Part shown: piece by piece, positions 5,308-25,193 of the stretch
Layout of the letters: every line of letters begins with the position of its first letter
How positions within the stretch are numbered: position 1 is the stretch's first letter
Origin: Lepiota brunneoincarnata
Lineage: Eukaryota; Basidiomycota; Agaricomycetes; Agaricales; Agaricaceae
Direction: 5' to 3'
NCBI GenBank assembly: GCA_023014365.1
Contig: JAEBUN010000066.1
Coordinates: 61,601-125,600, forward strand
Length of the DNA stretch: 64,000 nucleotides
Program-made: the position numbers and the translations under genes
Notes under the pieces: generated by a model
Database searches by the model: none
Seen by the model: the letters and a program-made list of their open reading frames with translations, nothing else
Told to the model about the DNA's origin: nothing

Positions 5308-5693
5308 TGTTACCCGGGTTAGGGGTTCGCTCTTGAGTAGCACGGCATTCGTGGCAAGATGTCTATACAGACTTGGTCTTGTCCTACTAGGCGTGACTTA
5401 GAGACGACGGAGCACTATAGTCCAGCCGGTTTAAGGGCAAAGAGGTATAGGAGGCAAGAACTGTATAACACTAAGATAAGGATACAAGGTATTGTACTGT
5501 ATCCTTATATACTTCTAAGTGTGGCTGTACTCCTACTATAATAATCCAGACTGGGGTAACTATGAGTCAGAGATAAGAAAACATGAGGCGTATACTAAGA
5601 ATAGTCCTTCTGATGTACACTACTGATAGTTTCATAGTGACATGGGAATGTGAGCTAAAAATAACTGTCCTTCTGATGTGATTTCTGATAACA
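5308..5693 (-). repeat. 3' LTR of B
   Basis: This 386-bp LTR is nearly identical to 13056-13441; the only difference I find is CGGCATTC here against CGGCGTTC there, a CpG transition. TSD ACAGC precedes it at 5303-5307. Read as DNA on the + strand it starts TGTTACCCGGG and ends CTGATAACA. Confidence 0.97.
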
Positions 5694-5730: not shown

Positions 5731-6999
5731 TTAGTTTCCTTCTTCCGGGTATTCGGCTAAGTAGTTTGGTTTGTAGTAATCGATCTGGGGTAGGTTGGTG
5801 GAGTCTGGTCTGGGGGGAATGATGGGGGAGAAGGTAGGAGTGGGAGTTCTGTGAAGATCGAGTGCGGTGGCGGTTTCTGGGGATGGGGGCTGTCCTGGGT
5901 AAAAGATATCATAGAGAAGGCATCTGAAATGGGGACTTTCGATTCTTTCTTCTGGTGGGGTGAGTTGGTTTGTTTCAGAAGGAACCACATGGTTCTCCTG
6001 TGATGTTTGATTCGGCCACGTCGTCGTAGCATTCCTCGTAATAATCATCGTGGGTGAGGTCGATGTATCGATGGTGAGTTGTGGGAGTGGTCGAGGGATG
6101 GGTTGTAGGATTTCTGGAGTAGGGGGTGTGTCGAGTCTTTCAACTTGGGCATTCGGTCCGTTTGTGGCGCGGTTGAAAGACGGCGCAGTGGGGGCATCTG
6201 TATTTGATGCAATCGTATGAGTAGTGCCCTGGAGCGTATTGCTTACATCCGAGGCAGGCAAATTGGGGGCAATCCATGGCCCAGTGTCCTGTGTGTCTGC
6301 ATTGGATGCAGACCAATCTGTCGGTGGTTCGGGGGTTGGTTCGCTGGTGAATGGGGTTGGGGGAGTTCCGAATCGGGACGTTGTTACTGGTGACGGTGTG
6401 GGTGGTGTCCCTGGTGGGGGTGAGAAGTCTGAAGGGATTTCTGATACTGGCGGGCTTTCTTCCCTTACTGGGGGCGGTGGTGATGATAGCGGCAGTGGTC
6501 GTCGTGGTAGTGGTGGGGATGGTTGTGGTGGGGGGCTGCGAGGTATGTACCTCATTTCGTTTGGGTAGGTTCTTTGACACCTTGGACATGAGGCCCGATC
6601 TTGAGTGGAGAAGTCGCTCAAGTGATTCTGCCCAGGCACGTTGCGTATTGTACGCAGTAGCGAGAGCCTTAGTCTGTCGTACGTGGTGGGTATAGTCGTA
6701 CCAGAGTTGTCGGTCGTATTCTGAAATTGGAGTGTGTTCCAATTTAATCGTAAAGGCTCCGTCGGTGGCAGCCTCGCGCAGATCTCCGTCAGAAGGGTGA
6801 TCTGGTCCATATGATCGTACTCCAGCTGTATGGTATCTAAGGGAGGTGGCTGGGGCGGCTGTTGGTTCTGGGGTGTTGTTGGGGTCGGGGGTCTCGTCCC
6901 TGGGGGAGGCGTATGTTGCGGCGAAGGTGTGAGAGGGGGTGTAGGGAGACGGGGCCGGAACGGGAGTTGTTTGAAGTGTTGTATGTTCGACGCTTGCAT
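5731..6999 (-). CDS. B ORF3b: long frame overlapping ORF3a
   Basis: This 422-codon open frame lies one base downstream of the ORF3a frame and overlaps it for about 1 kb. The product would be very rich in Pro, Thr and Ser. It continues about 80 codons past the ORF3a stop with a less biased tail (around LLYDIFYPGQPPSP) and ends YPEEGN 38 bp before the 3' LTR. The tail is recognisable in A1 and A3. C has an equally placed long frame. Where B and C can be aligned, changes are synonymous in ORF3a but not here, and C-rich DNA rarely contains stops. The overlapped part may therefore be open by composition only. The unique tail is the best candidate for real coding. Confidence 0.4.
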   Translation of the reverse strand: MQASNIQHFKQLPFRPRLPTPPLTPSPQHTPPPGTRPPTPTTPQNQQPPQPPPLDTIQLEYDHMDQITLLTEICARLPPTEPLRLNWNTLQFQNTTDNSGTTIPTTYDRLRLSLLRTIRNVPGQNHLSDFSTQDRASCPRCQRTYPNEMRYIPRSPPPQPSPPLPRRPLPLSSPPPPVREESPPVSEIPSDFSPPPGTPPTPSPVTTSRFGTPPTPFTSEPTPEPPTDWSASNADTQDTGPWIAPNLPASDVSNTLQGTTHTIASNTDAPTAPSFNRATNGPNAQVERLDTPPTPEILQPIPRPLPQLTIDTSTSPTMIITRNATTTWPNQTSQENHVVPSETNQLTPPEERIESPHFRCLLYDIFYPGQPPSPETATALDLHRTPTPTFSPIIPPRPDSTNLPQIDYYKPNYLAEYPEEGN

Positions 7000-7099
7000 T
7001 GTTTATGATGACGACGGAGGACGATGAAGAGGTTGGTGAAGGTGTTGTTGAAAAAGGGGGAGTAGTTTGGGGGCGAGTGAGGTCGAGGTTCATGGGCAT
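5975..7099 (-). CDS. B ORF3a: zinc-knuckle third gene after pol
   Basis: The ATG lies 2 nt after the pol stop. The frame encodes about 374 residues with one in-frame TGA at 6140-6142; A1 has CAA at this site, so the ancestor was probably CGA. The first half is Ser/Thr/Pro-rich with a Trp-containing helical stretch (about 130-180). Three knuckles follow: CIQCRHTGHWAMDC (CX2CX4HX4C), CLGCKQYAPGHYSYDC and CPHCAVFQPRHKRTEC (both CX2CX6HX4C). The end reads AESNITGEPCGSF. Element C keeps the APGHY knuckle and the SNITGEP tail. A nucleic-acid-binding accessory protein is inferred from the knuckles; I know no named family. The TGA splits this copy into 319 residues plus a tail. Confidence 0.75.
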
Positions 7100-7101
7100 C
7101 T

Positions 7102-10100
7102 TTAAGTACGTTTGTTGTGGGAGTGAAGTTGTCTTTGGTTGGTTCTGGTGGGTTCCTGTTCTTTCTGGAGAATTCCATGAGCTTCTCTATACTCAGTCAA
7201 GTATTCTTTGGCGTTTTCATGAAGCATTTCGTCGGTGATCCATTCGTTCTCCGTGTGGGAGTATCCTTTCCATTTGATGTAGTATTGGAGTTTTCCACGA
7301 TGTTGTCGGTGGTTTAGAATGGCTTCTATTTCGTATTCTTCTTCTTCATTGATGATGTCTGGTGGTGGTGGGGTCAGATGAGATCCGTATGCTTCTGTTT
7401 CGGTGTATGGAGTTAGAAGGTTTCTGTGGAATATTGGATGTATCTTCCATTTGATCGGAAGTTTTAGTTTGTAGGTGAGCGGTGATAGGACTTCTGTGAT
7501 AAGGAAGGGTCCTAGTCGTTTTGGGGATATTTTGTTGGAAATGAAGGGGAGTTTGAGGTTCTTGGCTTCTAGCCATACTTTTTGACGTGTTTCAAGGGGT
7601 TTGACAGTTCTTCTGGTTCTTTGTTTCATAATGTCGGCGGAGAGTTGATGTGCCGCGTGTGCTTCTTTTCTGGCATCGTCAAGGAGTCTGATGCGTTCGT
7701 CTACTGATGGAAAGTTCGATGTTTCCATTACCGTGGGTATCGGTGGAGGGTTGTATCCCATGATTAGTTCGAATGGGGATTTCTGCCTCGAGGCATGTAT
7801 TTTGGAGTTGTGTGCGAACTTGGCGATAGGGAGGGTTTCTGACCAGTCAAGGGGATTCCTGGTGCAGTATATGGCGAGATAGGTCTCGATTTCTTGATTG
7901 TATCGTTCTGTGGAACCATCTGTCTGGGGATGGTATGCGGTTGAAAATGCCTGTTGGATGTTAAGGCGTTTGGCTAGCTGTCGGAGGGAGTTGGCGGCGA
8001 ATCTGGGGTCTCGATCTGATATAATTTTGTCGGGTAGTCCGAATCTGGTGAAGACTTTTTCTATTAATAGTCGTCCGATGTCATCAGCGTTTGATCGATC
8101 TGAGGTTGGGATGAAAATTACCCCCTTTGTAAGGCCGTGGTCCACCACGGACAATATCGCATTATGGCCAGCGCTAGGCAGTAGACCGGTGATAAGATCC
8201 CATGAGATCTGGGCAAATGGGCATTTAGATGCTGGTGGAGGGATCGGTTGAGTCGGTGCGCGATCCGGTTTGCGTATGATTTTATGTTGCTGACACTCTG
8301 GACAGCCTTTGACGTAGTTCTTTATGAATGTTGACATTCCTGGCCAATATACTTCTTTCTTGGCGAGGCGGTATGTTTCCTGTTCTCCAGGATGGCCATG
8401 TGTAGGGTGGTCGTGGTATCTTGCGATGACATCGCGTCTGAGTTGGAGGTCTTCTGGAATAATGACACGTTCCTGGAATGTGAGGAGTGAACCATTTGAG
8501 GTTGGAACTGTTCCGAAGTCTTTATCGGCGGCGTTAGGGTGGGTTTCCTTTAGGAGTTTGAACGCTTCGGTGGTTCTAGCGTCGTATTTGGGTGATTCCG
8601 TGATTCTTTCTTGGAGTTCCGTATCGACGGTGGCGATAAAGAGGTGTTCTGGGAGTATTGTGGTCAGGTTTTGATCTTCCATGTCATTGGTGGCGACAAA
8701 GAGGTTGTTTGGAAGCATGGTAACGTCTTCGTTATCATTGTCCTCATCGGGGATGTGGTCTGGACGTCTTGATAGGGCGTCTGGTGCAGGGATCTTTGAT
8801 CCTGGGACGTGTTCTAGTTTGAAGTTGTAGTCAGCGAGGGTCTGGACCCATCGTGCTTGTCGGTGGTTGATTTTCTGGGGTTTACGCCAGTATGTGAGGT
8901 TTTGGTGGTCTGTTCTGATACGAACAGTGTGGGGGCTGCCAAGGAGGTAGTGGCGCCATTCTTCAAGGGCTCGGATGATAGCGAGGAGTTCCCTGTCATA
9001 GATATCGTAATTGCATTCCGCTGGTCCGAACGTCTTTGAGTAGAATGATACGGGTTTCCGTATTCCGTTGATGTCGTATTGATACAGGACGGCTCCTGAT
9101 GCAAATTTAGAAGCATCAGCTTCTATTTCGAAGGGTTTTGTGGAGTCGGGCATGAGGAGTACCGGTTCTTTTAGGAATTTGTTTTTGAGCGTTTCGAATG
9201 CTTTCTGTTGTTCTTCTTTCCATTCGAATTTGTTTGACTTGGAAAGGAGTTGGTTCAGGGGTTTGGTATGGTGGGAGTAATTGCGGATGAACTTCCGGTA
9301 GAAGTTACAGAATCCGATGAATTTTCGAACATGTCGGACCGTTTTTGGTACTGGCCAGTCTTCTATTCCTTTGAGTTTTCCGGGATCCATTTTGATCTCG
9401 TCTGGCGTGATGATCATGCCAAGATATTCGAGTCGTTGTTTGTTGAACTCGCATTTCTCCGTTTTGAGGTAGAGGTCGTTTTCCTGCAAGATTTGCAGTA
9501 CTTTTTCCGTAAGTCGGTCGGTTTCTTCCTGGGTTTTACCATAGATTAGGATATCATCCATGTAGATGATGATTCCTCCTTTTTCCATTATTTCGGAGAA
9601 TAACGTGTCCATCATATGTTGGAACGTCGCGGGACTATTGCAAAGTCCGAAAAACATGACAGTCGGTTCGAAAAGACCCATGGGAGTCTTGAACGCTGCT
9701 TTCCATTGATCGCCATCTTTGATTCTGACGTTATTGTATCCTAGGCGGACATCGAGCTTAGTGAAGTACTTAGCTCCTTTGAGTTTATCCATGATAGAGG
9801 AAATCATGGGGATTGGGTAGGCATTTTTGATGGTATGATCGTTTAGATAACGATAGTCTTGGCAGGGTCGGAGGTCTCCTCCTTTCTTAGCAACAAAGAA
9901 GAAGGGTGATGCCATAGGGGATTTTGAGGGGCGGATGTAGCCTTTTCGGAGATTTTCGTCTATGAATTCCTTCAACGCTTTTTCTTCGGCAGGTGCCACT
10001 TGATAAGGTTTCATCGATTTTGCTTCGAATGTCGGTTTTAGTTCGATTTCATGATCAAATGTTCTTGATGGTGGGAATCGTCCGGAGGCTTTCTTGTTGA

Positions 10101-10947
10101 ATATTTTAGCCCATTGGGCAAATCTCCGAGGGATCTCAGGTGGTTCCTTGTTTGATTCCGGTTGTTTTCCTTTTTGGTTTGCCGATCTTGTCGGATTATG
10201 TTGCTCATTGTGGAGCGTTGTGGCGTGTGTCGCTTTGGCGTTTACTTCTAATGGGGTTAGAAGCATGGGGTTCATTTCTCTTTCTAGAGAGAAGGTGTCG
10301 AGGTCAACATTTGACAGGTTGACGTATTCTTCGGGGTTTTCCTCGGGTTGAGAGGTTTTTCCAGCCATTATGTCCATGGCAATGGAGTTGAGTTCGACAG
10401 GTTGTCGTAGGGTTCTGAGGAGTTTCGAGAAGTCCTGGTGGTCGATTTGTGGTTTCCAAGAGAATGTCTTGGTCTTCCAGTTGATGTCGGGGTTGTATTG
10501 TTCCAACCAGGGAAATCCGATGATGAGGTCTTTCTCACCAGTGTTTGTGACGTACGCTTCTAGCGTGCAATCTCTTCCATCAATGATGGTTCTGATTTTG
10601 ATGTATTCATGCATCTTGCCATGTTGATTGTCAGTTCCGTCAACGTTGCTGAGGGGAATTGGTTGGTCCAGCCGTTTGGTTTGATAACCATGTCATTCAA
10701 CGACTTTGTGGGAGATGAAATTCCCTTGGGCTCCTGAGTCTATCAGGGCGGTGATGGCCACAGGTTTTGATGTCCGTTCACTCCAAATCTCGATGGGTAA
10801 GAAAAGGGATCGTTTATTCGGGGATAGTCGTAATTGTACAGAGTTTATCGAGAAAATGTCCTTCTGGGAGTGAGAGTACCAAATGTCCTTCTGAGTTCTG
10901 GAACGTGCAGGGGCACATCTGTCGACAGCGTTCCTTTTTAAAAATCC
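7102..10947 (-). CDS. pol: B pol: protease, RT, RNase H, integrase, chromodomain
   Basis: The frame opens in the -1 phase over the gag end (shift site 10940-10947). It passes the protease core ALIDSGAQGNFIS and meets one TGA at 10693-10695 just after it, followed by an uninterrupted 1170-codon stretch (10614-7102). Domains in order: retropepsin; reverse transcriptase with YMDD at about 9550; RNase H (FEIEADASKFASGAV); integrase zinc-binding region (HDHPTHGHPG ... CPECQQH); integrase core (WDLITG, SDRDPRF, HPQTDGSTERYNQE); and a C-terminal chromodomain (EYEIEAILNHR ... WKGY). The domain order and chromodomain place it in the chromovirus branch of Ty3/gypsy. The TGA probably arose from CGA by deamination and would separate the protease from RT. 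Confidence 0.95.
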
Positions 10948-12707
10948 TGGAATGGACGCATCTCCGGGTCCTCGGCTAGCGCGGAGTGGAGTTCTTGTTG
11001 GAGTTCTGGATCAAGGTCATCGACCATTTGGCGCATCTGAGATGCGACTTCTGTGACGGCAAGGGAATACTTGCGTTGGGCATTCCGGTTTGGGAATCCG
11101 GGACGAGTGTTTTGTTGTCTAGGGAAGGGACGGTCGGGGTTTCTCGCAGGGCGAGGGGGATTAGTGCGCATTCCTGGGAAGCGTCTAGCTGGCGGTGGTT
11201 GGGGGCATTTGCTGACCCAATGATCTTTGGCTCCACATCGGAAGCATTCCTGGTTTTGGTATGATTTCATCTGTTGTCCGGTGATGACAGCATCTAACTC
11301 CAATGGTTCTTGTGTGGAGTTTTCTTCAGCATATTCTGGTTGTGGGATTTCGGGATAAGGATCTTCGAATCCTTCTTCTATTGCGACATGGTCTACTTCC
11401 ATGGCGTGTGGGTCGCGTGGGGTGAATCGTGGAGCGTTGCTCCTTTGGTAGAATTGTGCGTAGGGCACGTTGTTGTTTGGACGGCTTGGTCCGCGGTTGG
11501 GTTGGTATTGGTTTCTTTGGGGAAACGTATTTCTGGGGGTGCCATAGAGGGCATTGATTCGGCGGAAGTTGTCATCGAGTTTGTTTGCTCGGGTGTACCA
11601 AGCGGTGATAGTTGTCGGAGGGTTCTCCGATTTGTCGATTTTCATGGCAATGCGACGGTCAATTGCCTTGCGGTATAGATCGATTAATGTGCGATCTTCG
11701 TTTAGTCCGGATTGTCGGACAAGTTCTTTGAACTGAGCGTTGAACTCAGTCATTGGTTTGCCTGCTTGGTGCAGGGTTTGAAGTCTGGTATGTGCGTACG
11801 CATGTTCGTCCGCTGGGGTGAAGTCGGCCCTAAGTCGGGCGGTGAAGTTGTCCCATGATTCCATGATTATGGGTTGTCCTTGTGGGGTTTGGGCGTTTCT
11901 TTCGTGGAGGTACTGTCTAGCCCAGGCTCGGGCATCTCCTGATTGCATTGTCGAAAGGACAAATAAGGTCCTAGCGAGATCGGTGTTGTAAGTGGTTGCA
12001 TTAGCGAGCACGTAAACTTCGCATTGGAAGATCCAGTCTTTGAATAGTCTTCTAGTTCCATCGAAGGCGATGGGTTTGAGGAGTCCTAACTCCTTTGGGG
12101 TAGCTGCGGCAGCCATTATTTGTAATTGTCTGGGTGGCAGCGGCGGTGGTGATGGGGATTGTGCTGGTCGCAAAGGTGGAGCCGGTAGGGCTAAGGGTAC
12201 GGTTGGTGCGGGTAATGTGGGTGGTTGTGGATCGGGGTCTGATTGGTTGTTGTCTGTGATGTAGACGTCTGAGTCGTTATCAATTGGGGTTTTTCCTTGG
12301 TTGAGTTCAATGAAGGCCTCGTGTCTTGAGAGGAGATTTTCTTCAGAACCTGTGAGTTCTCTAGGTTGTTGTACGGCTTGTTGAAGTCGTTCAAGTTTGT
12401 ATGGGGAAAGTTGGTTTGCGATGATATCGCGTTTTTCTTGTTCTTCACGTTGTCTTTGTTTTTCAGCTAGTGCGGCTGAGAAACTTGTTTGGGTTCATGT
12501 TGTGGTGACGAGTTGGGTTGATGTTGATGCACGTGGGGTAGGTGAATCAAATGGGGATGGGGGATAGAATGGCGACGGTGTTTGAGTGGGGATAGGATTT
12601 CTTCTGGGATCCGGGTTTTGGGTTCCTGATCCTGAGATTCTGCTTCTCGATTTGGGAGGAGGGGGAGGTGATGGGGATTCTCGGGCCGAGAATTTCTTTG
12701 GTGGCAT
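10938..12707 (-). CDS. gag: B gag
   Basis: The frame runs from an ATG at 12707 to TAA at 10938-10940 and would give about 589 residues, but a TGA at 12495-12497 interrupts it after 70 codons. The uninterrupted core has its own ATG at 12173 (411 residues). The leader is Pro/Ser-rich and then charged. The core holds the retrotransposon gag region (FDGTRRLFKDWIFQCEVYV, W-D-F-R motifs) and a CCHC knuckle (CFRCGAKDHWVSKC) near residue 310, followed by basic and acidic tails. The stop lies just downstream of GGATTTTT, the likely -1 shift site for making Gag-Pol. The TGA may be a CpG mutation, or the core ATG may be the working start. Confidence 0.88.
10940..10947 (-). promoter_or_regulatory. B gag-pol -1 frameshift site
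   Basis: On the minus strand GGATTTTT precedes the gag TAA. Gag reads GAT-TTT-TAA and pol reads GGA-TTT-TTA in the -1 frame. C has GGATTTT at the same place (19071-19077). This is not the textbook X-XXY-YYZ heptamer, so the mechanism is inferred from frame geometry and conservation. Confidence 0.55.
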
Positions 12708-13055: not shown

Positions 13056-13441
13056 TGTTACCCGGGTTAGGGGTTCGCTCTTGAGTAGCACGGCGTTCGT
13101 GGCAAGATGTCTATACAGACTTGGTCTTGTCCTACTAGGCGTGACTTAGAGACGACGGAGCACTATAGTCCAGCCGGTTTAAGGGCAAAGAGGTATAGGA
13201 GGCAAGAACTGTATAACACTAAGATAAGGATACAAGGTATTGTACTGTATCCTTATATACTTCTAAGTGTGGCTGTACTCCTACTATAATAATCCAGACT
13301 GGGGTAACTATGAGTCAGAGATAAGAAAACATGAGGCGTATACTAAGAATAGTCCTTCTGATGTACACTACTGATAGTTTCATAGTGACATGGGAATGTG
13401 AGCTAAAAATAACTGTCCTTCTGATGTGATTTCTGATAACA
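13056..13441 (-). repeat. 5' LTR of B
   Basis: This 386-bp LTR is followed on the + strand by the duplication ACAGC at 13442-13446. It carries the promoter of B: on the minus strand the TATATAAGG box occupies 13259-13251, and the predicted start of the transcript lies near 13226. Confidence 0.97.
13251..13259 (-). promoter_or_regulatory. TATA box of B LTR
   Basis: TATATAAGG on the minus strand. The same nonamer occurs in the LTRs of A1 (3378-3386) and C (16816-16824), each 33-35 nt before the stretch that matches the primer-binding site. Confidence 0.65.
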
Positions 13442-15358: not shown

Positions 15359-16025
15359 ATGCAAACAGTATGCCCCAGGACATTATTTCTATGACTGCAT
15401 CAAATACTGATGCCCCCACTGTGCAGTTTTTCAACTCCACCATAAACAGACCAAATGCCCAGCTTGAAAGACTTGACACACCCCCTACTCCAGAAATTCA
15501 GCAGCCCATCCCACAATGACCCCAACTACCTACCATCATTACATCAACCTCACCAATGACAACTATTATAAGAAATGCTATGATGAGGTCACTGAGTCCA
15601 ACATTACAGGAGAACCATGCAGTACCTTCTGAAGAAAATCAAATTGCTCCTGCTAAAGAAAGAATAGAAGACCCACAATTCAGATGACTCTTATACAACA
15701 TCTTCTATCCAGGACAACCCCCATCCCCAGAAACAGCCACCATACTTGACCTCTACAGAACCCCCACTCCAACATTCTCTCCCATCATTCTCCCTCAACC
15801 CAACTCCACTGAACCCCAAGTCAACTACTATGAACCCTCCTACCTTACCAAATCCCCTGAAGAGGGAAATTAACAAGTTGTAATAGAATACAACTCTAGA
15901 AATGGACCTAATGTTATCAGAATTCCCATGTCATATGTCACTCTGAAATAATCAGTAGTGTACATCAGAAGGACTATATTTAGATCATGACTCATAGTTA
16001 CTCCAGTCCAGACAAATAGAGTAGG

Positions 16026-16333
16026 TGTTATGAACAGTCCAGACCGGGAGAAACAAGAACTATTGTTCGACTTTACAAGATGGGTACAGGAGACTACAGA
16101 CCAATTACGGGCACAAGAATACGAAGACGAGGAAGGGGAATATTACACCGCCATGCAGGACCTGGCGAGAGAAGCAGGAATGGAGATAACCTTGGAGGAT
16201 ATATTGGAATACCCCGAGGACGAGGAAGATAACCATGGATCAACCGACCCAACCTCCGATACGGATGGAAGCACTGAGAGAATGGAGAGCGAGAACGAAG
16301 AAGACTCCATGGAGATACAATCGGGAGAAGAAG
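16026..16333 (+). repeat. Extra partial LTR (first 308 bp) in front of C
   Basis: These 308 bp align without gaps to 16334-16641 at 12 transition differences. They carry the same open frame (16030 onward) and are directly joined to the full LTR. The outer GTAGG duplication encloses this piece. It fits an older C-family LTR that received C at its position 308, after which the 3' LTR of C recombined with the remainder of the old LTR. Confidence 0.85.
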
Positions 16334-16337
16334 TGTT

Positions 16338-16706
16338 ATGAACAGTCCAGACCGGGAGGAACAAGAATTACTGTTCGACTTTACAAGATGGGTACAGGAG
16401 ACCACAGACCAACTACGGGCACAAGAATACGAAGACGAGGAAGGGGAATACTACACCACCATGCAGGACCTGGCGAGAGAAGCAGGAATGGAGATAACCT
16501 TGGAGGATATATTGGAATACCCCGAGGACGAGGAAGATAACCATGGATCAACCGATCCAACCTCCGATACGGATGGAAGCACCGAGAGAATGGAGAGCGA
16601 GAATGGAGAAGACTCCATGGAGATACAATCGGGAGAAGGAGATTATGAGTCAGAGGAAAGCGATGGAACATCGCACAGCAGTAGCGAGAGCACTGACTCA
16701 TTGTAA
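16338..16706 (+). CDS. LTR-encoded acidic ORF of C
   Basis: This 122-codon frame starts four bases into the LTR. The product is strongly acidic: MNSPDREEQELLFDFTRW is followed by Glu/Asp runs and a Ser-rich end (ESTDSL). The identical frame in the 3' LTR is the in-frame continuation of ORF3b, so the genomic RNA would encode it as the C-terminal part of that protein. In the 5' LTR it lies upstream of the predicted transcript start and is probably silent. Against the partial LTR (16026-16333) I count 8 synonymous and 4 amino-acid-changing differences, which suggests selection on the protein. I recognise no domain. Confidence 0.5.
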   Translation: MNSPDREEQELLFDFTRWVQETTDQLRAQEYEDEEGEYYTTMQDLAREAGMEITLEDILEYPEDEEDNHGSTDPTSDTDGSTERMESENGEDSMEIQSGEGDYESEESDGTSHSSSESTDSL

Positions 16707-16815
16707 TATAAATAACGCTAGGATGCCATCAGCCAGGATGTGCATCATGGTCAGGACTGCGCACGACCAGTAGAACAGCCAAGTAACCTATAACGAGTAT
16801 ATAGCATCTCATAGG

Positions 16816-16862
16816 TATATAAGGCCTGTACAAGTAGAGATTAAAGCCTCAAGCTTTAATCT
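16816..16862 (+). promoter_or_regulatory. C LTR promoter and predicted transcript start
   Basis: TATATAAGG occupies 16816-16824. AAGCTTTAATCT at 16851-16862, 35 nt later, is exactly complementary to the site just inside the LTR (17034-17045). A transcript starting there would carry the self-primer at its 5' end. Confidence 0.6.
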
Positions 16863-17033
16863 TGTTAACAGCGGTCGTTTACCTCTCTGCCTTAACTTGG
16901 CGTCTTCCCTCGTTATCTCATTGAGCGCGATCCACTAAGCTCTATAAGGCCAACCGTCTCGGACACCTTGTAGAGTGATTGAAGGCCGTCTCCAGTTATC
17001 CTCGGATACAGAAGGAGCACGGATCATAACATT

Positions 17034-17045
17034 AGATTAAAGCTT
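17034..17045 (+). promoter_or_regulatory. C primer-binding site (self-priming type)
   Basis: AGATTAAAGCTT lies two bases after the 5' LTR. It is the reverse complement of 16851-16862. No tRNA-like TGG site adjoins the LTR. B shows the same geometry. Confidence 0.65.
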
Positions 17046-17221
17046 CCTTTGGACAACCTCCATCGTACACCCCGTGGTATCGGTACGCCTTGTCGCTACC
17101 CTTCCACACCGGCAGACGATACGCTTTATCGCTATCCGAGTGCCAACCGTATCTGACGACACGCCTTGTCGCTGTCCGGTGATACACCCCCGTAGAGCAG
17201 GCCACCATACCCTCTGCACCC

Positions 17222-19083
17222 TTGGTCAGACGCACCGAAAGCGTTGATAGGTCATCCACACCTTTAAGTGTTGATTGGGATAACGCACCCGTAAGCGTTG
17301 TATACAGGTCATCCGCACCTTCAAGCGTCGATTGGGATAACGCACCCGCAAGCGTTGTTTATTCACCCTCACCCTCACCTTCGACTTCTTCCCTCTTCAC
17401 CCTGTCTACAAACCGAAACGACCCCCTTGCCACCGACTACGAAGAATCCAACAGTTCTGACTGGTCGACAACCGACTCCGAACCCGACTTCACACCCCCT
17501 CCACCACGGACCCTAAAAAGAAAACAAAACCTATACCCCTCACTCGTTCACCCTCTGGTTCCGCACCGTACCCCACACAACCTACCGAGAGAGTTCAACG
17601 TCGAACAGAAGACCCAGGATACCCAGCACCCCCAGCATCAGTTCTTCAATCCCTACCTAAACAACCACCACCTGAAAGAACTGCCACCTCTACCCGCTCA
17701 AAGCTCGGGGAACCGATTCATAGAACATCTACCCCATCCTCCGGTCCTCAACCCTCAACAAGTACAAGAACTAGCGACAACACTTCGCAACAGAAACCCC
17801 CAAGAACATTCTCACCCCTCACATCACCACTTGGATCACCGGTACATTCACCGCCTCGATCCAGTTCCCCTGTACAATCCGAACCATCCGAAGTTAGCCC
17901 CACTACCGGGTCTATTCACACTTCCGACGAGGAATCCACAACCTCTGACATTAACAATATGGCCTCCTCCGCAAAAATCAATACACCCCCAACCTTTAAT
18001 GGAGAGACCGACTACTTCCGCCTCTGGAAGGATGCAGTACAACTATACATCGATGCAAAGCCAGGAGCCTTTTCCGATGACAAGACCAAGATACAATTCG
18101 CCCTTTCATACATGTCCACCGGCCCCGCCGCAACATGGAGAGGAGCATTCTTGGAATCAAACAAAGAACTCGATGGAAGCCAGACCCTTCCGACATGGAA
18201 GAAATTTCTCGAAGGACTCGATACATCCTTCGCCCCAAACAATGTCCCCGCCGACGCAATGGACAGAATCCGCCACCTCAAACAGAATGGACGATATATC
18301 GACGATTACATATCCCAGTTCCAGATACTTGCCTATCAGGCCGACCTTGGAGATGGAGTGGTGGCGGTCAACTATTTCAAGAACGGGCTGGATCGCCCCG
18401 TCGCAATCAAGACAATTAGCCTCAATCCAGGAAACAAACTCAGCGACTGGTTCAAGCAAGCTCGAACAGCATATCAGATACTACAAACTCAACGCGACTA
18501 TATGCAAACTCGAGGAACTCCCTCGTTTCCAACGACTTCGCGCACTCGCCCATTTAAAGGGAAAAGAAATGCTTTTACGCGCCGTGTCCCACTGCCCTAT
18601 CAAGCAACAGACCCTAACGCAATGGATATTGACCAACTCGCCGAAGCAGTCTACAACCTCGACTTTGAGGACGAGCCAGATCTACTCGCCGAGGAAGCTG
18701 ATGAAGACGAGGAGACCGAAGAAGACAGACTCCACCAGTTGGTACAAGAACGCACCCGCGAAGCCCTCAATGCAATCCTCACGGACGCCCAAAGAAAGGA
18801 TCTCAAAGAAAAGAGATGCTTCAACTGCCGCAAGACTGGACATTTTGCCCGCGAATGCCCCACCAAGAAGACAATATATCGCCGATCCGAATTACCCCGC
18901 AATTTGGATGCCAGAAACCGGTCAAATGCGATATCCAGAAGAAGACAAGCAAGCTACAGGAAAAAGAACTCGCTATACAACATACTAGAAGATGCAACCG
19001 ACGAAGAAGTCGAGGACATCTACGAACATTTTGCAAATGAATCCAACCACCCAGATGCCCCTCTGGTTAAGGATTTTGCCTAA
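17222..19083 (+). CDS. gag: C gag (leader plus core)
   Basis: The core has its own ATG at 17959 (374 residues, to TAA at 19081-19083). It begins with the gag fold (FNGETDYFRLWKDAVQLY) and carries a CCHC knuckle, CFNCRKTGHFAREC, near residue 292, followed by a basic stretch. Upstream the core frame is open back to 17461 without an ATG. A convincing Ser/Pro-rich leader with a repeated SVDWDNAP unit starts at ATG 17222 in another frame. Joining leader to core needs a -1 shift near the A-rich stretch at 17512-17530. In B a TGA separates a similar leader from a core that also begins with its own ATG. The leader may be a separate product, a shifted extension, or broken. Confidence 0.85.
19071..19077 (+). 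promoter_or_regulatory. C gag-pol -1 frameshift site
   Basis: GGATTTT is read GAT-TTT by gag (stop TAA at 19081) and GGA-TTT by the -1 pol frame, which opens right after a TAA at 19068-19070. The same heptamer sits at the gag end of B. The gag/pol overlap is only 13 nt, which limits where a shift can occur. Confidence 0.55.
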
Positions 19084-22000
19084 GGAGACTAGCCACCACG
19101 TCTAGCCCTCCACAAAGACCTCCTTCCCTTTCCTATTCACAAAATGATATTAATGTTGTAAAGTTACAGGAATCGTCAGCACGCGTAATACATCTACCCT
19201 GTCGAATCCGAAAACACAAGTTCACTAAGGAAGGACCCGAAAGCGTGGAACTACTCGCCCTACTCGACTCAGGAGCAGCAGGAAACTTCATTGACCCCGG
19301 AATGGTCAAACAACATTCATTCAAAACAACACCCCTCGATCGACCCATCGAAGTACGAAATGCCGATGGATCTGTTAACGAAAATGGAACGGCCACCCAC
19401 TACACGACCCTCAACCTAACGGTTAACGGGAAGAATATGGAGATCAAACCAAAAGTAGTCTCCCTCGGAAGCCCAAGACTCATCCTTGGATTCCCTTGGC
19501 TTGCAGAACACAACCCAGACATCGACTGGGATGCCAAACAACTACGCTGGAGAAACGAACGTTGGGACAACACTATATTCCGAGAACTCATCCAATCCAT
19601 GGAACCCGATTGGATCTACAACGACCAACTCAACCACATCTCCACACTAGAACCCACAAGCTTCGAAGAAATCAACTTCAAAGCCTCCGCATCACAATTC
19701 CTCGCTGTACAACACGGAGAAAAGAAAAACGATGACCCAAGAAAAGTCGTACCTACAGAATTCCACGAATATCTCCCAGTATTTAGCAAGAAACAAGCCG
19801 AACGATTCCCCCCACAACGACCATGGGATCACAAAATTGAACTCAAAGAATCATTCAAACCAATTGCCATGAAATCCTACCGACTCTCCCTCAATGAAGA
19901 AAAGGAACTCGACACGTTCCTAGAAGAAAACCTTCAAAAGGGATACATTCGACCATCCGAATCGCCAATGGCATCACCTTTCTTCTTCGTAGGAAAGAAA
20001 GATGGAAAATTACGCCCCTGTCAAGACTACAGGTACCTCAACGAGCATACCGTCAAAAATGCATACAACCTCCCCCTCATCTCTCATATTCTCGACAAAC
20101 TTCGAGGATCAAAATATTTTACCAAACTCGACGTACGAGCAGGATACAACAACATCCGCATACGCAAAGGAGATGAATGGAAAGGAGCCTTCAGGACACC
20201 CCGAGGATTATTCGAACCCACGGTTATGTTCTTTGGAATGTGTAACTCCCCAGCAACATTCCAAACCATGATGGACTCATTATTTCGAAAACTCATCGAC
20301 AATGGAGGAGTAATCGTTTACATGGACGACATCCTCATCCATGCAAAAACAAAACAAGAACTCCGGCGCCTCACAAGAGAAGTACTCAAGATACTCAAGG
20401 ACAACGATCTATACCTCAAGACCGAGAAATGCGAATTCGAACGACAACGACTTGAATATCTAGGAGTTATTATCACTCCCGACTCAGTTTCGATGGACCC
20501 AGCAAAGCTCAAAGGCATCGCTGAATGGCCAACACCAACTACCCCGCGCGACGTACGAAAATTCATAGGATTTTGCAACTTCTATCGAAAATTCATACAC
20601 CAATACGCCACATGGGCAAAACCTCTCAATGCTCTAATGTCCAAAACCAAGAAATTCGAATGGACAGAAGAATGCCAGAACGCCTTCGATACTCTCAAGA
20701 GAAAATTCCAAAGCGAACCGGTATTAATGGTCCCCGACCGAGACAAACCCTTCGAAATCGAATGCGACACATCACTATTTGCATCAGGAGCAGTCCTACT
20801 TCAACGCGACAATAATGGAGTTAAACACCCAGTCGCATACTTCTCGAAAGGATTCTCACCAGCCGAACGCAACTATCATTGCTCCGAACAGGAACTCTTC
20901 GCCATTATCCGAGCACTCAAAGAATGGCGTCACCACATAGAAGGATCATCACACAAGACCATCGTATGGTCAGATCACGACAACCTTCGCCGCTGGAGAA
21001 AACCTGAAGACCTCAGCAGAAGACAAGCCCGATGGATTGCCTACATGCAACGATTTGACATCGAAATCCGACATATCCCTGGAAAGAAAAATGGACCAGC
21101 AGACGCCCTTTCCAGACGACCCGATCACGAACCCAAGACAAGAGACAACAAACAGGTCGTTGCACTCCCGGACAAATTCTTCACCCCAGAACAGCCACAA
21201 CATATCCATATTATCGACGAAAATACTAAGCGGGAAATAAAAGAGCTGTGGAAGAAAAGGAAACAGACCGACATCGCCCAAGAAGACGACTCAGGACACC
21301 CACGTGTTCAAGGAAAACTATTTATACCACAAGATTTACACCTCAGACGCCGCTTACTGCAAAGAGTACACGACTCACCCACCGCAGGACACTCTGGAAT
21401 CGCAGAAACAACTAGAAAACTCCAGGAATACGCCTACTGGCCCGGGATGCGATCATTTGTCAAAAACTATGTCAAAGGATGTGGTACTTGCCAACAATAC
21501 AAGATCAATCGCCACCCCTTGAAACCACCGCTTCAACCCATCCCTGGACCCCGTTCTACCCGTCCATTCTCGAACATCTCGATGGATCTTATCACAGACC
21601 TACCCCCGGACGGACCCCATGATTCTATACTGGTCGTGGTCGACCAGCTTACGAAGGGGATAATTCTAGAACCTACTGCGAAAACCGCCAACGCGGACAA
21701 GATCGCCGAAATTCTTATCAAACGGCTATTCTCTAGATTTGGCCTTCCCGAGAAAGTTCTCAGTGATCGCGACCCCAGATTCGCTGCCAAATCTATGAAA
21801 GAATTCTACAAACAACTCGGAATCGAACAAGCACTCTCTACCGCCTACCACCCCCAGACAGACGGACAAACAGAGCGATTCAATCAAGAAATAGAACTCT
21901 ACCTTGGCATCTATTGCTCATCAAACCCGAACAAATGGGTAAAGGCACTCCCACTCCTGGAATACGTCCATAACTCGAAAACACATGCCGAACACCAACA

Positions 22001-22739
22001 TACCCCATTTGAACTCCTCTATGGATCAAGCCCCAAAGGATTTCCGACCTCCGAGGAGCCAACGAACATTCCAGCAATAGGAGAGAAGTTTAAATATCTC
22101 GCCAAGATACGCCAAGAAGCCCAAGCTGCGCATGAACAAGCCAGACTAAAAATGGCTGCAAGATATAACCGGCCAGATATCAATCTAAAAGTTGGACAGA
22201 AGGTTTGGCTCGACAACCGCAACCTCCCAATCCAGTACGCCTCAAAGAAACTGGCCCAACGCCGAGAAGGTCCCTTCACCATAACAAGAAAACTCGGACC
22301 TGTAACCTATGAACTAAAATTACCCATCAAATGGAAGATCCACAACAAGTTTCATGCGAGCCTCCTAATGCCTGCAGAAGAGAACGACACACATGGGGAA
22401 TACAACACAGCCCCACCACCCGACCTTGTAAATGGAGAAGAAGAATACGAGGTCGAGTCAATACTGCGCCACAGAAAATTCCGGAACAAGTATCAATTCC
22501 TAGTCAGATGGAAAGGATACCTTCCCACTGAGGATTCCTGGGAGCCAGAAGGAAACCTGGAGAACGCCAAGGAAATCATTGAAGAATATAAAAGGGCCCA
22601 CAAATTAGACAACCCCACCAATGACCCAACCACCCAACACTCGAGCAACCACTCCAGACCTCCCAGAGCCAGACAACGATGGACGCCTTCTCATCCGGGA
22701 AAGAATCATATCCCTGGCGAACCGCGTCGAAGGAAATAG
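19071..22739 (+). CDS. pol: C pol: protease, RT, RNase H, integrase, chromodomain
   Basis: The frame is continuous from the shift site to TAG at 22737-22739, about 1220 codons. No ATG is needed if it is made as Gag-Pol; the 1164-codon stretch from 19245 begins at GTG. Domains in order: retropepsin ALLDSGAAGNFID (about 19254); reverse transcriptase with YMDD at about 20320; RNase H (FEIECDTSLFASGAV); integrase HHCC region (HDSPTAGHSG ... CGTCQQY); integrase core (MDLITDLPPD, SDRDPRF, HPQTDGQTERFNQE); chromodomain (EYEVESILRHR ... WKGYLPTEDSWEP) at about 22440-22590. All catalytic motifs that I can see are intact. The last 119 nt overlap ORF3a. Confidence 0.96.
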   Translation, partial: GFCLRRLATTSSPPQRPPSLSYSQNDINVVKLQESSARVIHLPCRIRKHKFTKEGPESVELLALLDSGAAGNFIDPGMVKQHSFKTTPLDRPIEVRNADGSVNENGTATHYTTLNLTVNGKNMEIKPKVVSLGSPRLILGFPWLAEHNPDIDWDAKQLRWRNERWDNTIFRELIQSMEPDWIYNDQLNHISTLEPTSFEEINFKASASQFLAVQHGEKKNDDPRKVVPTEFHEYLPVFSKKQAERFPPQRPWDHKIELKESFKPIAMKSYRLSLNEEKELDTFLEENLQKGYIRPSESPMASPFFFVGKKDGKLRPCQDYRYLNEHTVKNAYNLPLISHILDKLRGSKYFTKLDVRAGYNNIRIRKGDEWKGAFRTPRGLFEPTVMFFGMCNSPATFQTMMDSLFRKLIDNGGVIVYMDDILIHAKTKQELRRLTREVLKILKDNDLYLKTEKCEFERQRLEYLGVIITPDSVSMDPAKLKGIAEWPTPTTPRDVRKFIGFCNFYRKFIHQYATWAKPLNALMSKTKKFEWTEECQNAFDTLKRKFQSEPVLMVPDRDKPFEIECDTSLFASGAVLLQRDNNGVKHPVAYFSKGFSPAERNYHCSEQELFAIIRALKEWRHHIEGSSHKTIVWSDHDNLRRWRKPEDLSRRQARWIAYMQRFDIEIRHIPGKKNGPADALSRRPDHEPKTRDNKQVVALPDKFFTPEQPQHIHIIDENTKREIKELWKKRKQTDIAQEDDSGHPRVQGKLFIPQDLHLRRRLLQRVHDSPTAGHSGIAETTRKLQEYAYWPGMRSFVKNYVKGCGTCQQYKINRHPLKPPLQPIPGPRSTRPFSNISMDLITDLPPDGPHDSILVVVDQLTKGIILEPTAKTANADKIAEILIKRLFSRFGLPEKVLSDRDPRFAAKSMKEFYKQLGIEQALSTAYHPQTDGQTERFNQEIELYLGIYCSSNPNKWVKALPLLEYVHNSKTHAEHQHTPFELLYGSSPKGFPTSEEPTNIPAIGEKFKYLAKIRQEAQAAHEQARLKMAARYNRPDINLKVGQKVWLDNRNLPIQYASKKLAQRREGPFTITRKLGPVTYELKLPIKWKIHNKFHASLLMPAEENDTHGEYNTAPPPDLVNGEEEYEVESILRHRKFRNKYQFLVRWKGYLPTEDSWEPEGNLENAKEIIEEYKRAHKLDNPTNDPTTQHSSNHSRPPRARQRWTPSHPGKNHIPGEPRRRK

Positions 22740-23835
22740 CCAACCTAACCCTGCCACCGATACCGCTGACGACCAACCAGACAGGACCAACAGTCCTTAT
22801 ATCATCCGGCATACCTTCCTTCCCTCCAACCAACCCGAGATACGATCCATCCTTTTACACGAAGTTCCCTTTCATATTACCGGAACCCGTCTTAAACGCA
22901 GTCCAGCGATGGTACCCCTGGTCGACACCTGCTGGAAGACATTTACTGCTCTTCTGTATCACAAGCGCCTCGTCCACGACCGAGCAACAGAATTCGAAAA
23001 ACTATGCGCCACTATTCTTTCTAGCGCAACAGAGGAACAGGACCGCAATACCATTTCTGCCATGCTATCAACCGCTCTCACCGAATTCCCGTTCGAGAGT
23101 CCGATCCCAAGCCCGAGCAATGGAAGCGGAAGTCAGGACCGCCCTATCCTACCTATCGGGACCACCACCCAACCTTCCAACCCTCCCATGGTGGATACGA
23201 GTAACCAACCATCAAGTGTTGTACAAGCTATATCTGCTTCTAATGACGCCCCCGTCGGGACTACCACCACTCACTTATCCACCACCCGAACTCGCTGCAA
23301 TTGCTGCCGTCAATTCGGCCATATCAAAGCAGGATGCCCGCGCTACCAATGTCGATATTGTCGAAAGATTGCCCCAGGCCATTACAAGAAGCACTGCGAG
23401 AGAAACCCTTACCAACATCAACCCGCAAGTATGGTACCTGGCCTGTATCGCCGCCCACGAGGAATACCAAGCAGAGCTCGATCCCTCACACGTGAAACCA
23501 CAAACAACAATATTCGACACATTGTTGCAAGCACCGAGCAGCGCCCCGCTTCAGCCAGACCCCTCCGCACCCGAATTCAAAATGCCCCCGTCGTCATTCC
23601 GACCACCAACGCCACCACCACATCTGCTAGTGGAAGCCACCGACTTCCTGAATCGATCCTTCGGCACACCCGCCACCATTCACTCCAGAGAACCCATCGT
23701 CATCGACCTCACCCAAGACCCGCCATCCCCAGACCACCAAGCTACCGAAGCGACTCCCCAGAACCCAACCCATACTTCGACTGGGACCCCATCGCCGAAT
23801 CAAATATTACAGGAGAACCTGTCGGACTATACTGA
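22621..23835 (+). CDS. C ORF3a: zinc-knuckle third gene
   Basis: This intact 404-codon frame overlaps the end of pol by 119 nt. A Trp-containing helical region lies near residues 105-150. Two adjacent knuckles follow at about 222-255: CNCCRQFGHIKAGC (CX2CX4HX4C) and CRYCRKIAPGHYKKHC (CX2CX6HX4C). An Arg/His-rich tail ends AESNITGEPVGLY. The APGHY knuckle, the SNITGEP end and the position after pol match ORF3a of B. In the tail the two elements differ only at synonymous third positions over nine codons, which argues for selection on this protein. A role in binding element RNA or DNA is inferred; I know no described family with this layout. Confidence 0.8.
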   Translation: MTQPPNTRATTPDLPEPDNDGRLLIRERIISLANRVEGNSQPNPATDTADDQPDRTNSPYIIRHTFLPSNQPEIRSILLHEVPFHITGTRLKRSPAMVPLVDTCWKTFTALLYHKRLVHDRATEFEKLCATILSSATEEQDRNTISAMLSTALTEFPFESPIPSPSNGSGSQDRPILPIGTTTQPSNPPMVDTSNQPSSVVQAISASNDAPVGTTTTHLSTTRTRCNCCRQFGHIKAGCPRYQCRYCRKIAPGHYKKHCERNPYQHQPASMVPGLYRRPRGIPSRARSLTRETTNNNIRHIVASTEQRPASARPLRTRIQNAPVVIPTTNATTTSASGSHRLPESILRHTRHHSLQRTHRHRPHPRPAIPRPPSYRSDSPEPNPYFDWDPIAESNITGEPVGLY

Positions 23836-24250
23836 GGATATGTCTGATGAGGACATCAGACCTTACGAAGGGGATAATGTTATGAACAGTCCAGACCGGG
23901 AGGAACAAGAATTACTGTTCGACTTTACAAGATGGGTACAGGAGACCACAGACCAACTACGGGCACAAGAATACGAAGACGAGGAAGGGGAATACTACAC
24001 CGCCATGCAGGACCTGGCGAGAGAAGCAGGAATGGAGATAACCTTGGAGGATATATTGGAATACCCCGAGGACGAGGAAGATAACCATGGATCAACCGAT
24101 CCAACCTCCGATACGGATGGAAGCACCGAGAGAATGGAGAGCGAGAATGGAGAAGACTCCATGGAGATACAATCGGGAGAAGGAGATTATGAGTCAGAGG
24201 AAAGCGATGGAACATCGCACAGCAGTAGCGAGAGTACTGACTCATTGTAA
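22679..24250 (+). CDS. C ORF3b: overlapping frame running into the 3' LTR
   Basis: This 523-codon frame lies one base downstream of the ORF3a frame, as in B. It overlaps ORF3a for 1157 nt, continues through the polypurine tract and ends inside the 3' LTR. The last 122 codons are the acidic LTR-encoded ORF. The overlapped part shows little protein similarity to ORF3b of B and may be open because of base composition. The final part (EDMSDEDIRPYEGDNV plus the LTR domain) is the credible coding portion. It might be expressed by a frameshift from ORF3a near its stop or from its own start. Confidence 0.45.
   Translation: MDAFSSGKESYPWRTASKEIANLTLPPIPLTTNQTGPTVLISSGIPSFPPTNPRYDPSFYTKFPFILPEPVLNAVQRWYPWSTPAGRHLLLFCITSASSTTEQQNSKNYAPLFFLAQQRNRTAIPFLPCYQPLSPNSRSRVRSQARAMEAEVRTALSYLSGPPPNLPTLPWWIRVTNHQVLYKLYLLLMTPPSGLPPLTYPPPELAAIAAVNSAISKQDARATNVDIVERLPQAITRSTARETLTNINPQVWYLACIAAHEEYQAELDPSHVKPQTTIFDTLLQAPSSAPLQPDPSAPEFKMPPSSFRPPTPPPHLLVEATDFLNRSFGTPATIHSREPIVIDLTQDPPSPDHQATEATPQNPTHTSTGTPSPNQILQENLSDYTEDMSDEDIRPYEGDNVMNSPDREEQELLFDFTRWVQETTDQLRAQEYEDEEGEYYTAMQDLAREAGMEITLEDILEYPEDEEDNHGSTDPTSDTDGSTERMESENGEDSMEIQSGEGDYESEESDGTSHSSSESTDSL
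23867..23877 (+). promoter_or_regulatory. Polypurine tract of C
   Basis: GAAGGGGATAA directly precedes the 3' LTR, the expected position of the plus-strand primer. It is also inside ORF3b, where it reads as part of YEGDNV. Confidence 0.7.
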
Positions 24251-24575
24251 TATAAATAACGCTAGGATGCCATCAGCCAGGATGTGCATCATGGTCAGGA
24301 CTGCGCACGACCAGTAGAACAGCCAAGTAACCTATAACGAGTATATAGCATCTCATAGGTATATAAGGCCTGTACAAGTAGAGATTAAAGCCTCAAGCTT
24401 TAATCTTGTTAACAGCGGTCGTTTACCTCTCTGCCTTAACTTGGCGTCTTCCCTCGTTATCTCATTGAGCGCGATCCACTAAGCTCTATAAGGCCAACCG
24501 TCTCGGACACCTTGTAGAGTGATTGAAGGCCGTCTCCAGTTATCCTCGGATACAGAAGGAGCACGGATCATAACA
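23878..24575 (+). repeat. 3' LTR of C
   Basis: This 698-bp LTR is followed by the duplication GTAGG. It codes for the acidic end of ORF3b up to 24250 and then contains the same TATA box and hairpin as the 5' LTR (about 24360-24406). Confidence 0.96.
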
Positions 24576-24613
24576 GTAGGAACATAGCCACATCAAGTAG
24601 TATATAAGGATAC

Positions 24614-24996
24614 TGTTACCCAGGTTAGGGGTTTGCTCTTGAGTAGCACAGGGTTCAACACAGGATGTCTATACAGACTTGGTCCTGTCCTACTAAGCAT
24701 GACTTGGAGACGATGGAGCACTATAAGTCCAGCCGGTTATGGCAAAGAGGTATAGGAGGCAAGAACTTTATAACACTAAGATAAGGATACAAGGTATTGT
24801 ACTGTATCCTTATATACTTCTAAGTGTGGCTGTGCTCCTACTATAATAGTCTGGACCAAGGTAACTATGAGTCAGAGATAAGAAACATGAGGCATATGGT
24901 AAGAATAGTCCTTCTGATGTACACTACTGATGGTTTCATAGTGACATGGGAATATAGCTAAGAATAACTGTCCTTCTGATAAGAGTTCTGATAACA
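24614..24996 (-). repeat. Solo LTR of the B family with TSD GATAC
   Basis: This 383-bp LTR runs from TGTTACCCAGG to CTGATAACA and is flanked by GATAC at 24609-24613 and 24997-25001. It has no internal element sequence and lies inside the 3' LTR of A3. It was probably left by recombination between the LTRs of a former full element. Confidence 0.95.
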
Positions 24997-25001
24997 GATA
25001 C

Positions 25002-25193
25002 AGTACATACTCATGTATCCTTATCTTAGTGTTATACAGTTCTTGCCTCCTATACTTCTTTGCCCATAAACTGGCTGGACTTATAGTGCTCCGTCATCTC
25101 CAAGTCATGCTTAGTAGGACAGGACCAAGTCTGTATAGACATCCTGTGTCAAACCCCATGCTACTCACAAGCAAACCCCTAACCTGGGTAACA
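25002..25193 (+). repeat. A3 3' LTR, last part
   Basis: The sequence continues A3's LTR from the GATAC duplication to the terminal GGGTAACA. The short piece 24581-24608 between C and the solo LTR belongs to the same LTR. The next five bases (GAGTG) are the expected A3 target duplication, whose partner is outside the window. Confidence 0.88.

Follow-up and report, generated by a model that had tools for sequence, protein, structure and literature searches.

What does a fungal chromovirus encode between its pol gene and its 3′ long terminal repeat (LTR)? LTR retrotransposons, and fungal ones especially, are usually described as gag-pol machines, and excerpts from a survey of fungal LTR elements give two open reading frames (ORFs) as usual (PMC3248453). 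The question is raised by a stretch of 64,000 nucleotides (nt) from Lepiota brunneoincarnata (assembly GCA_023014365.1, contig JAEBUN010000066.1, positions 61,601 to 125,600; hereafter the window), in which two chromoviruses, B and C, have extra ORFs after the chromodomain. The initial annotation had described a single accessory protein there, which we call ORF3a. We found that ORF3a is under purifying selection in both families, but that the region codes for two overlapping proteins: a second long ORF, ORF3b, overlaps ORF3a in the +1 frame in B and in C, and the first half of the C overlap mainly serves this other frame. The overlapping gene pair is real, with purifying selection on both frames of the C overlap (p<1e-6). 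We propose, with a probability of roughly 0.6, that the DNA from pol to the 3′ LTR holds a pair of selected genes that would be translated by leaky scanning from one 3′ mRNA, ORF3a being a predicted RNA binder and ORF3b its predicted acidic partner.

Two overlapping ORFs follow the chromodomain

In element C, on the forward strand, ORF3a (404 amino acids; 22621..23835) overlaps the final 119 nt of pol, while ORF3b (523 amino acids; 22679..24250), which was absent from the earlier account, has an acidic tail of which 373 nt lie inside the 3′ LTR (23878..24579), so that the first 373 nt of this LTR are coding. In element B, on the reverse strand, ORF3b (422 amino acids; 5731..6999) ends 37 nt short of the LTR, and ORF3a of the window copy runs for 319 amino acids to an in-frame stop (6140..7099). 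One further fetched copy (L058) is truncated at that residue; full-length ORF3a of the B family has 374 amino acids and ends in SNITGEPCGSF (26/30 fetched copies, window copy included). As calculated from lengths and starts, ORF3b continues for 415 nt (C) or 244 nt (B) beyond the full-length ORF3a stop, and both ORFs were intact from end to end in 34/38 C copies and 21/30 B copies.

ORF3a contains two zinc knuckles in C and three in B. The two in C are those described initially, CX2CX4HX4C from residue 226 (23296..23337) and CX2CX6HX4C with APGHY from residue 244 (23350..23397; positions converted from residue numbers), and those in B lie at about 6269-6310, 6209-6256 and 6149-6196. The CX2CX4HX4C spacing was present in all 30 C copies and all 30 B copies when the frame was read past stops for counting. 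The curated cut-off of the CCHC knuckle family PF00098 was missed, the B segment reaching 19.7 bits against a threshold of 20.8 and C giving no match. ORF3a had also been said to end in SNITGEP; the motif is present, in frame a, although it stands four residues before the C-terminus in C (23800..23820; the protein ends in SNITGEPVGLY), and in the window copy of B its codons (5990..6010) lie past the stop. Over the nine tail codons AESNITGEP, three differ between B and C, each at the third position as originally reported, and the part of ORF3a from the knuckles to the tail aligns between the two families (z-score 12.6).

That further copies with this signature should exist had been set beforehand as a test, and the 55.6-Mb genome (95 contigs) contains many. 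By protein search, we scored 103 of 663 candidates as C-type copies of ORF3a (96-100% identity, 91 of them stop-free) and 125 of 729 candidates as B-type copies (80-100% identity). A degenerate DNA pattern for SNITGEP gave 449 genome matches (238 and 211 on the two strands), compared to 0 and 0 for the reversed control. A third family carrying SNITGEP was considered and rejected, as all 20 further motif places sampled outside the copy lists were B-like or C-like. Two decayed copies in the window, both on the forward strand, do show the same gene, as first proposed: A1 (about 1763..3158) covers an ORF3 region and A3 (about 15359..15926) an ORF3 end that includes the tail motif, and they are B-like at 81% and 77% identity, respectively. 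In one B-type ORF3 elsewhere in the genome (L073; G000:C1:1311145-1313045), an inverted piece from the LTR side is attached near ORF3a codon 108, so that this copy is apparently rearranged.

Novelty had been claimed for this signature, and it holds in so far as the collections searched, which we take to hold few fungal genomes, contained no relative beyond one ORF3a copy of 99% identity. This copy was found among 7990 scored candidates, the query words being likely in part of low complexity. The knuckle-to-tail part of B ORF3a had no relative in the protein collection (2 candidates), nor did ORF3b (in a collection taken to hold few fungi), and no ORF3 relative was found in viral contigs.

Selection is divided between the two frames

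About 100 near-identical copies in one genome provide unusually good data on how selection splits a stretch of DNA between two proteins. We fitted a conditional model that takes a real copy as its reference and conditions on mutation type and CpG context; every possible change receives the weight w_a when ORF3a is altered by it and w_b when ORF3b is. Frame a is that of ORF3a, frame b that of ORF3b (+1) and frame c the third; shared changes are variants found in two or more copies. The copies L001-L030 and L031-L060 are those that score best against the window ORF3a. Since copies picked in this way flatter frame a, we additionally used a contig-order subset, comprising nine of the eleven listed C-type copies on contigs C1-C2 (one of these, L022, is also in the top 30).

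In the C overlap (38 copies, 108 changes), both frames were strongly constrained, with w_a 0.22 (p 2e-7) and w_b 0.23 (p 3e-8), and with 0.09 and 0.11, respectively, for the 44 shared changes. The nine contig-order copies gave w_a 0.16 (p 6e-5) and w_b 0.16 (p 7e-6) over 54 changes, and 0.24 (p 0.04) and 0.19 (p 0.006) over 22 shared changes. Among the non-CpG changes, 3 altered both proteins compared to 16.4 expected, while 6 were silent in both compared to 0.6 expected. In the B overlap (30 copies, 197 changes), w_a was 0.24 (p 2e-14) and w_b 0.59 (p 0.018; bootstrap 0.02), and ORF3b is held only moderately within it. The selection in frame a that had been reported initially is thus confirmed, w being well below 1 in young copies of both families.

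Past the ORF3a stop, the constraint lies in frame b: w_b was 0.36 in B (p 8e-5), where frame a gave 1.27, and 0.41 in C (p 0.0015), or 0.24 for shared changes. The C tail was fitted on 36 of the 38 copies, L083 and L024 being left out of this fit only on account of their foreign tails; with both kept in, w_b was 0.75 (p 0.029), or 0.49 (p 0.004) for shared changes. Copies bearing a stop within the overlap numbered 1/38, 2/38 and 38/38 for frames a, b and c in C, and 4/30, 2/30 and 30/30 in B.

The two frames do not share the C overlap evenly. In its first half, w_b was 0.07 (p 4e-10) and w_a 0.26 (bootstrap 0.015), and in its second half w_a was 0.19 and w_b 0.50 (bootstrap 0.07). Variable sites at nt 119-672 are mostly third positions of frame b, and after about nt 690 they are mostly third positions of frame a, with a further b-type patch at nt 945-1005 (8/9 sites). 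Across the genome, among the best 150 scored rows for each frame, the first half of the overlap was 100% identical in 41 rows for frame b and in 5 for frame a, which shows that the +1 frame is the better kept there. The first half in C therefore serves mainly ORF3b and the knuckle half mainly ORF3a.

Control frames within pol provided a background level. In B, the +1 and +2 frames of pol gave w of 1.05 and 0.97 for all changes and 1.56 and 0.69 for shared changes, none of them significant; in C, the +2 frame gave 2.39 (p 0.066), and shared changes gave 0.92 and 1.70 for +1 and +2. The C overlap results and the B tail lie far beyond this control level. When frame c was substituted in the B model, w_c was 0.90.

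The length of the open second frame was initially considered as evidence and then dropped. An equally open frame b arose in 0/2000 silent-codon shuffles of C ORF3a and in 5% of 2000 shuffles of B ORF3a; the C gag gene likewise has a second frame of 342 codons that was equally open in 0/2000 shuffles, and in C pol the out-of-frame stops numbered 30 compared to 41 and 51 in shuffles, so that the shuffling null is too liberal in C. Among 118 scored rows each, gag was 100% identical in 19 and its second frame in 1, the window itself, so the latter frame is not conserved as gag is.

Start codons point to probable leaky scanning

The arrangement of AUG codons suggests how ORF3b might be reached. Its start lies 58 nt (C) or 100 nt (B) downstream of the ORF3a AUG, no out-of-frame AUG stands between the ORF3a AUG and this position in any of 60 copies, and the ORF3b AUG itself is kept in 59/60. 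Ribosomes that pass the ORF3a AUG would thus meet it as their first out-of-frame AUG, which makes leaky scanning likely. In all 30 C copies, the AUG contexts are CCACCAATGA at ORF3a and ACAACGATGG at ORF3b, which we take to be weak and strong, respectively, by the usual -3/+4 rule.

Fusion of pol to ORF3a, or a frameshift from pol into ORF3b, was considered as another route and is opposed by upstream stops. The ORF3b AUG is preceded by a frame-b stop at a distance of 2 codons in B and 19 in C (30/30 copies each), and the ORF3a AUG of C by a frame-a stop at 5 codons (30/30 copies); in 7/30 B copies, moreover, the interval from the pol stop to the ORF3a AUG is one base longer.

Predicted properties and a proposed role

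The first knuckle of B, a CX2CX4HX4C with GHWA-DCP, found its best match among solved structures in the retroviral nucleocapsid p10 (NCp10; E 0.0014 over 20 residues), which favours RNA binding without proving function, be it that of the second nucleocapsid or of the silencing antagonist suggested initially. The part of C ORF3a from the knuckles to the end is basic (+21), and the ORF3b tail is acidic in both families (-43 over the last 143 residues in C, -9 over the last 81 in B). Searches against Pfam-A at E 0.1 gave no match for either C protein and sub-threshold matches to zf-CCHC for B ORF3a and to Transposase_21 for B ORF3b. A stretch that is similar between the families at the DNA level encodes VIDLT in frame b of C (23699-23713; 30/30 copies) and IDLT at residues 346-349 of B ORF3a (29/30 copies); we assume VIDLT to be a motif of the SUMO-interacting (SUMO-binding) type.

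We propose that a shorter mRNA, either spliced or internally started, covers the 3′ end of the element, and that ribosomes that miss the ORF3a AUG would start at the ORF3b AUG. The nucleocapsid match of the B knuckle and the basic charge of the C protein lead us to suggest that ORF3a may bind element RNA as a free nucleocapsid-like factor and handle the genomic RNA in its export, packaging or protection, while ORF3b could be an acidic partner or activator. Both proteins would probably assist the element in making copies of itself.

A bolder version is possible but doubtful, namely that these are 'complex' fungal chromoviruses that would have acquired, independently of retroviruses, an overlapping trans-acting pair, comprising an export or packaging factor (ORF3a) and an acidic transactivator (ORF3b), with leaky scanning and a segregation of selection like that of tat/rev. 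If this were true, the C-terminus of C ORF3b would be coded inside the very LTR that it regulates.

Comparison with known systems

The closest parallel in coding arrangement is in human immunodeficiency virus (HIV), where, according to excerpts from PMC9119678, selection on tat/rev and rev/env is divided such that each stretch mainly serves one protein. ORF3a and ORF3b resemble HIV tat/rev as described there, having overlapping frames with segregated selection and a putative RNA-binding protein with an acidic, activator-like partner, but the overlap here covers about the full length of ORF3a, C ORF3b enters the LTR, the element is fungal and no sequence relation was seen. The tax and rex genes of human T-cell leukaemia virus are likewise overlapping regulatory genes of a complex retrovirus. 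Neither Pfam-A at E 0.1 nor the protein collection revealed homology to tat/rev or tax/rex proteins.

For ORF3a alone, our working model is CERV of the Caenorhabditis elegans element Cer1, an accessory protein of a gypsy/Ty3-type element that is needed for export of the genomic RNA (PMC10309623, excerpts). CERV is likened to ORF3a by description; it differs in that a spliced mRNA encodes it, in part in the polyprotein frame, and in that some peptide sequence of its N-terminal half is also found in GAG; the excerpts do not mention a second overlapping ORF (PMC10309623). Similarly, NCp10 resembles the first B knuckle, but ORF3a stands as a gene of its own whose two or three knuckles come in two spacings, and B and C already have a gag knuckle besides.

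Extra ORFs between pol and the 3′ LTR are known from plant and rotifer LTR retrotransposons; in the excerpts at hand, however, these are env-like, enzymatic (GDSL, DEDDy) or antisense (TRP28), unlike ORF3 (PMC7264820, PMC11963269, PMC5408684). Of these papers, the two on plants do not mention 'zinc' or 'overlap', and the one on rotifers mentions neither 'zinc knuckle' nor 'overlapping'. Insect elements carry extra ORFs upstream of gag or after pol, among them the accessory sORF2 of the MDG1 group, which is downstream of pol in some Lepidoptera; as far as the excerpts describe it, sORF2 is a short transmembrane fusogen-like protein (PMC11952523), whereas ORF3a and ORF3b are long and have no membrane-like segment. 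A fungal gypsy element with an extra gene is represented by brtn of the Boty-like elements in Botrytis (cited in PMC8365987, excerpts), but brtn is antisense, whereas ORF3a and ORF3b are both sense. We therefore rejected the antisense class of brtn and TRP28, since both ORF3 frames are on the pol strand.

The main text of a further fungal LTR element survey (PMC2864245) contains none of the terms 'third ORF', 'ORF3' or 'additional ORF', and among the matches listed from the open-licence literature, as judged by title and the start of the abstract, there was no such overlapping pair in an LTR retrotransposon. Accessory genes of LTR elements are thus known, and the overlapping ORF3a/ORF3b pair is real and under-described. 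Conservation of the pair across pols of only 50% identity would imply that overprinting and accessory genes also occur outside retroviruses and other viruses. The knuckle pair, SNITGEP near the end and the +1 ORF provide a signature for the annotation of fungal genomes.

Weighing the alternatives

Several results weigh against the pair as we interpret it. The first halves of ORF3a do not align between B and C (z-score 0.5), and neither do the ORF3b proteins. The case for leaky scanning is less obvious in B, where nearly every copy has A at -3 and C at +4 around both AUGs, and no copy resembling a spliced cDNA without gag-pol was found among 40 leader places scored of 202 candidates; all 40 carry gag or ORF3a at the full-length distance, as compared by eye. 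AlphaFold models of the proteins were poor (mean pLDDT, the predicted local confidence, 35 for five sequences and 40 for one sequence) and were not used. One control misbehaved, the +1 frame of C pol giving w 0.47 (p 0.042), so that p values near 0.04 cannot be trusted alone, and the 0.018 for ORF3b in the B overlap is not far off. The weaker frame in each half of the C overlap is only moderately supported by its bootstrap value, and in the nine-copy subset w_a of the first half was 0.35 (p 0.14). Replacing frame b by frame c in the C model gave w_a 0.80 (p 0.31) and w_c 2.34 (p 0.001), and replacing frame a gave w_c 2.16 and w_b 0.72; such raised w_c values are as expected from omitting a constrained frame. 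Finally, an open second frame alone proves little.

It is unlikely that the pair, while real, mainly counters host silencing or regulates chromatin instead of acting on element RNA. Of 20 older copies sampled (L061-L080), 18 were CpG-poor (ratio 0.09-0.35; the other two 0.72 and 0.84), which suggests methylation-driven decay and that transposons in this genome are heavily methylated at cytosines; the host thus likely methylates the elements, and the acidic ORF3b tail and the VIDLT and IDLT motifs would fit a role in countering this. However, the first B knuckle is nucleocapsid-like, and the Pfam search gave no similarity to any anti-silencing protein.

We regard it as quite unlikely that ORF3a is the sole upstream product, with the frame-b tail reached by a +1 frameshift or a splice near its stop and the rest of ORF3b open by chance. 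The ORF3a stop is TGA in both families, the next frame runs on into the tail, stop-poor composition can leave long second frames open, and frame b in B is indeed held only moderately inside the overlap and strongly beyond it. This explanation nevertheless conflicts with the first half of the C overlap, which is held mainly in frame b (41/150 compared to 5/150 rows), and with the retention of the ORF3b AUG and of the frame-b stop that precedes it.

One spliced gene with exons in alternating frames b, a and b is improbable, even though in C frame a does take over from b as the dominant frame near the knuckles and gives way to b again in the tail, and one exon of CERV in Cer1 uses a different frame (PMC10309623, excerpts). 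The last b-type run in C (nt 672) and the first a-type site (nt 695) are about 25 nt apart, a gap too short for a normal-sized intron, and the b-type patch at nt 945-1005 interrupts the scheme. Moreover, the knuckles and the first part of B are both mainly in frame a, w_a in the C first half stays below 1 with frame b in the model, and the ORFs are open throughout in most copies of both families (34/38 and 21/30).

That the long frames simply result from A/C-rich, stop-poor composition and encode no protein is highly improbable: C gag also has its 342-codon second frame, but that frame is unconserved (1/118 rows, the window, at 100% identity compared to 19/118 for gag), and codon-phase selection is seen in both ORF3 frames. 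An envelope-like protein, suggested by the position of a sense ORF after pol as in plant env-like elements (PMC7264820, excerpts), has a negligible probability, as none of the four proteins has a membrane-like segment or approaches such hydropathy (best 19-residue mean 0.94).

Setting of the two elements

Both elements are LTR-flanked chromoviruses with RVT_1, RT_RNaseH and rve domains in Pfam and a Chromo domain (5.5e-15 in C, 3.6e-12 in B). The divergence between them that had been noted initially is borne out by 50% identity in pol over 1154 aligned positions and 25% in gag over 339 positions, which makes them distinct families. In C, on the forward strand, the 5′ LTR (16334..17035) differs from the 3′ LTR at 3 of 702 positions; gag (17959..19083) has the Pfam domains Retrotrans_gag, Ty3_capsid and CCHC, and pol (19245..22739, with the first GTG taken as its provisional start) encodes protease, reverse transcriptase, RNase H, integrase and the chromodomain. 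In B, on the reverse strand, the 5′ LTR (13056..13441) is followed by gag (10938..12173), pol with its chromodomain (7102..10614) and the 3′ LTR (5308..5693), with 1 mismatch in 386 between the LTRs.

A 588-codon open frame at 17222-18988 runs over the C leader and 342 codons of gag in the +1 frame, and is likely due to chance in stop-poor sequence. Directly before the C 5′ LTR, positions 16026-16341 repeat part of the initial stretch of the C LTR at 96% identity.

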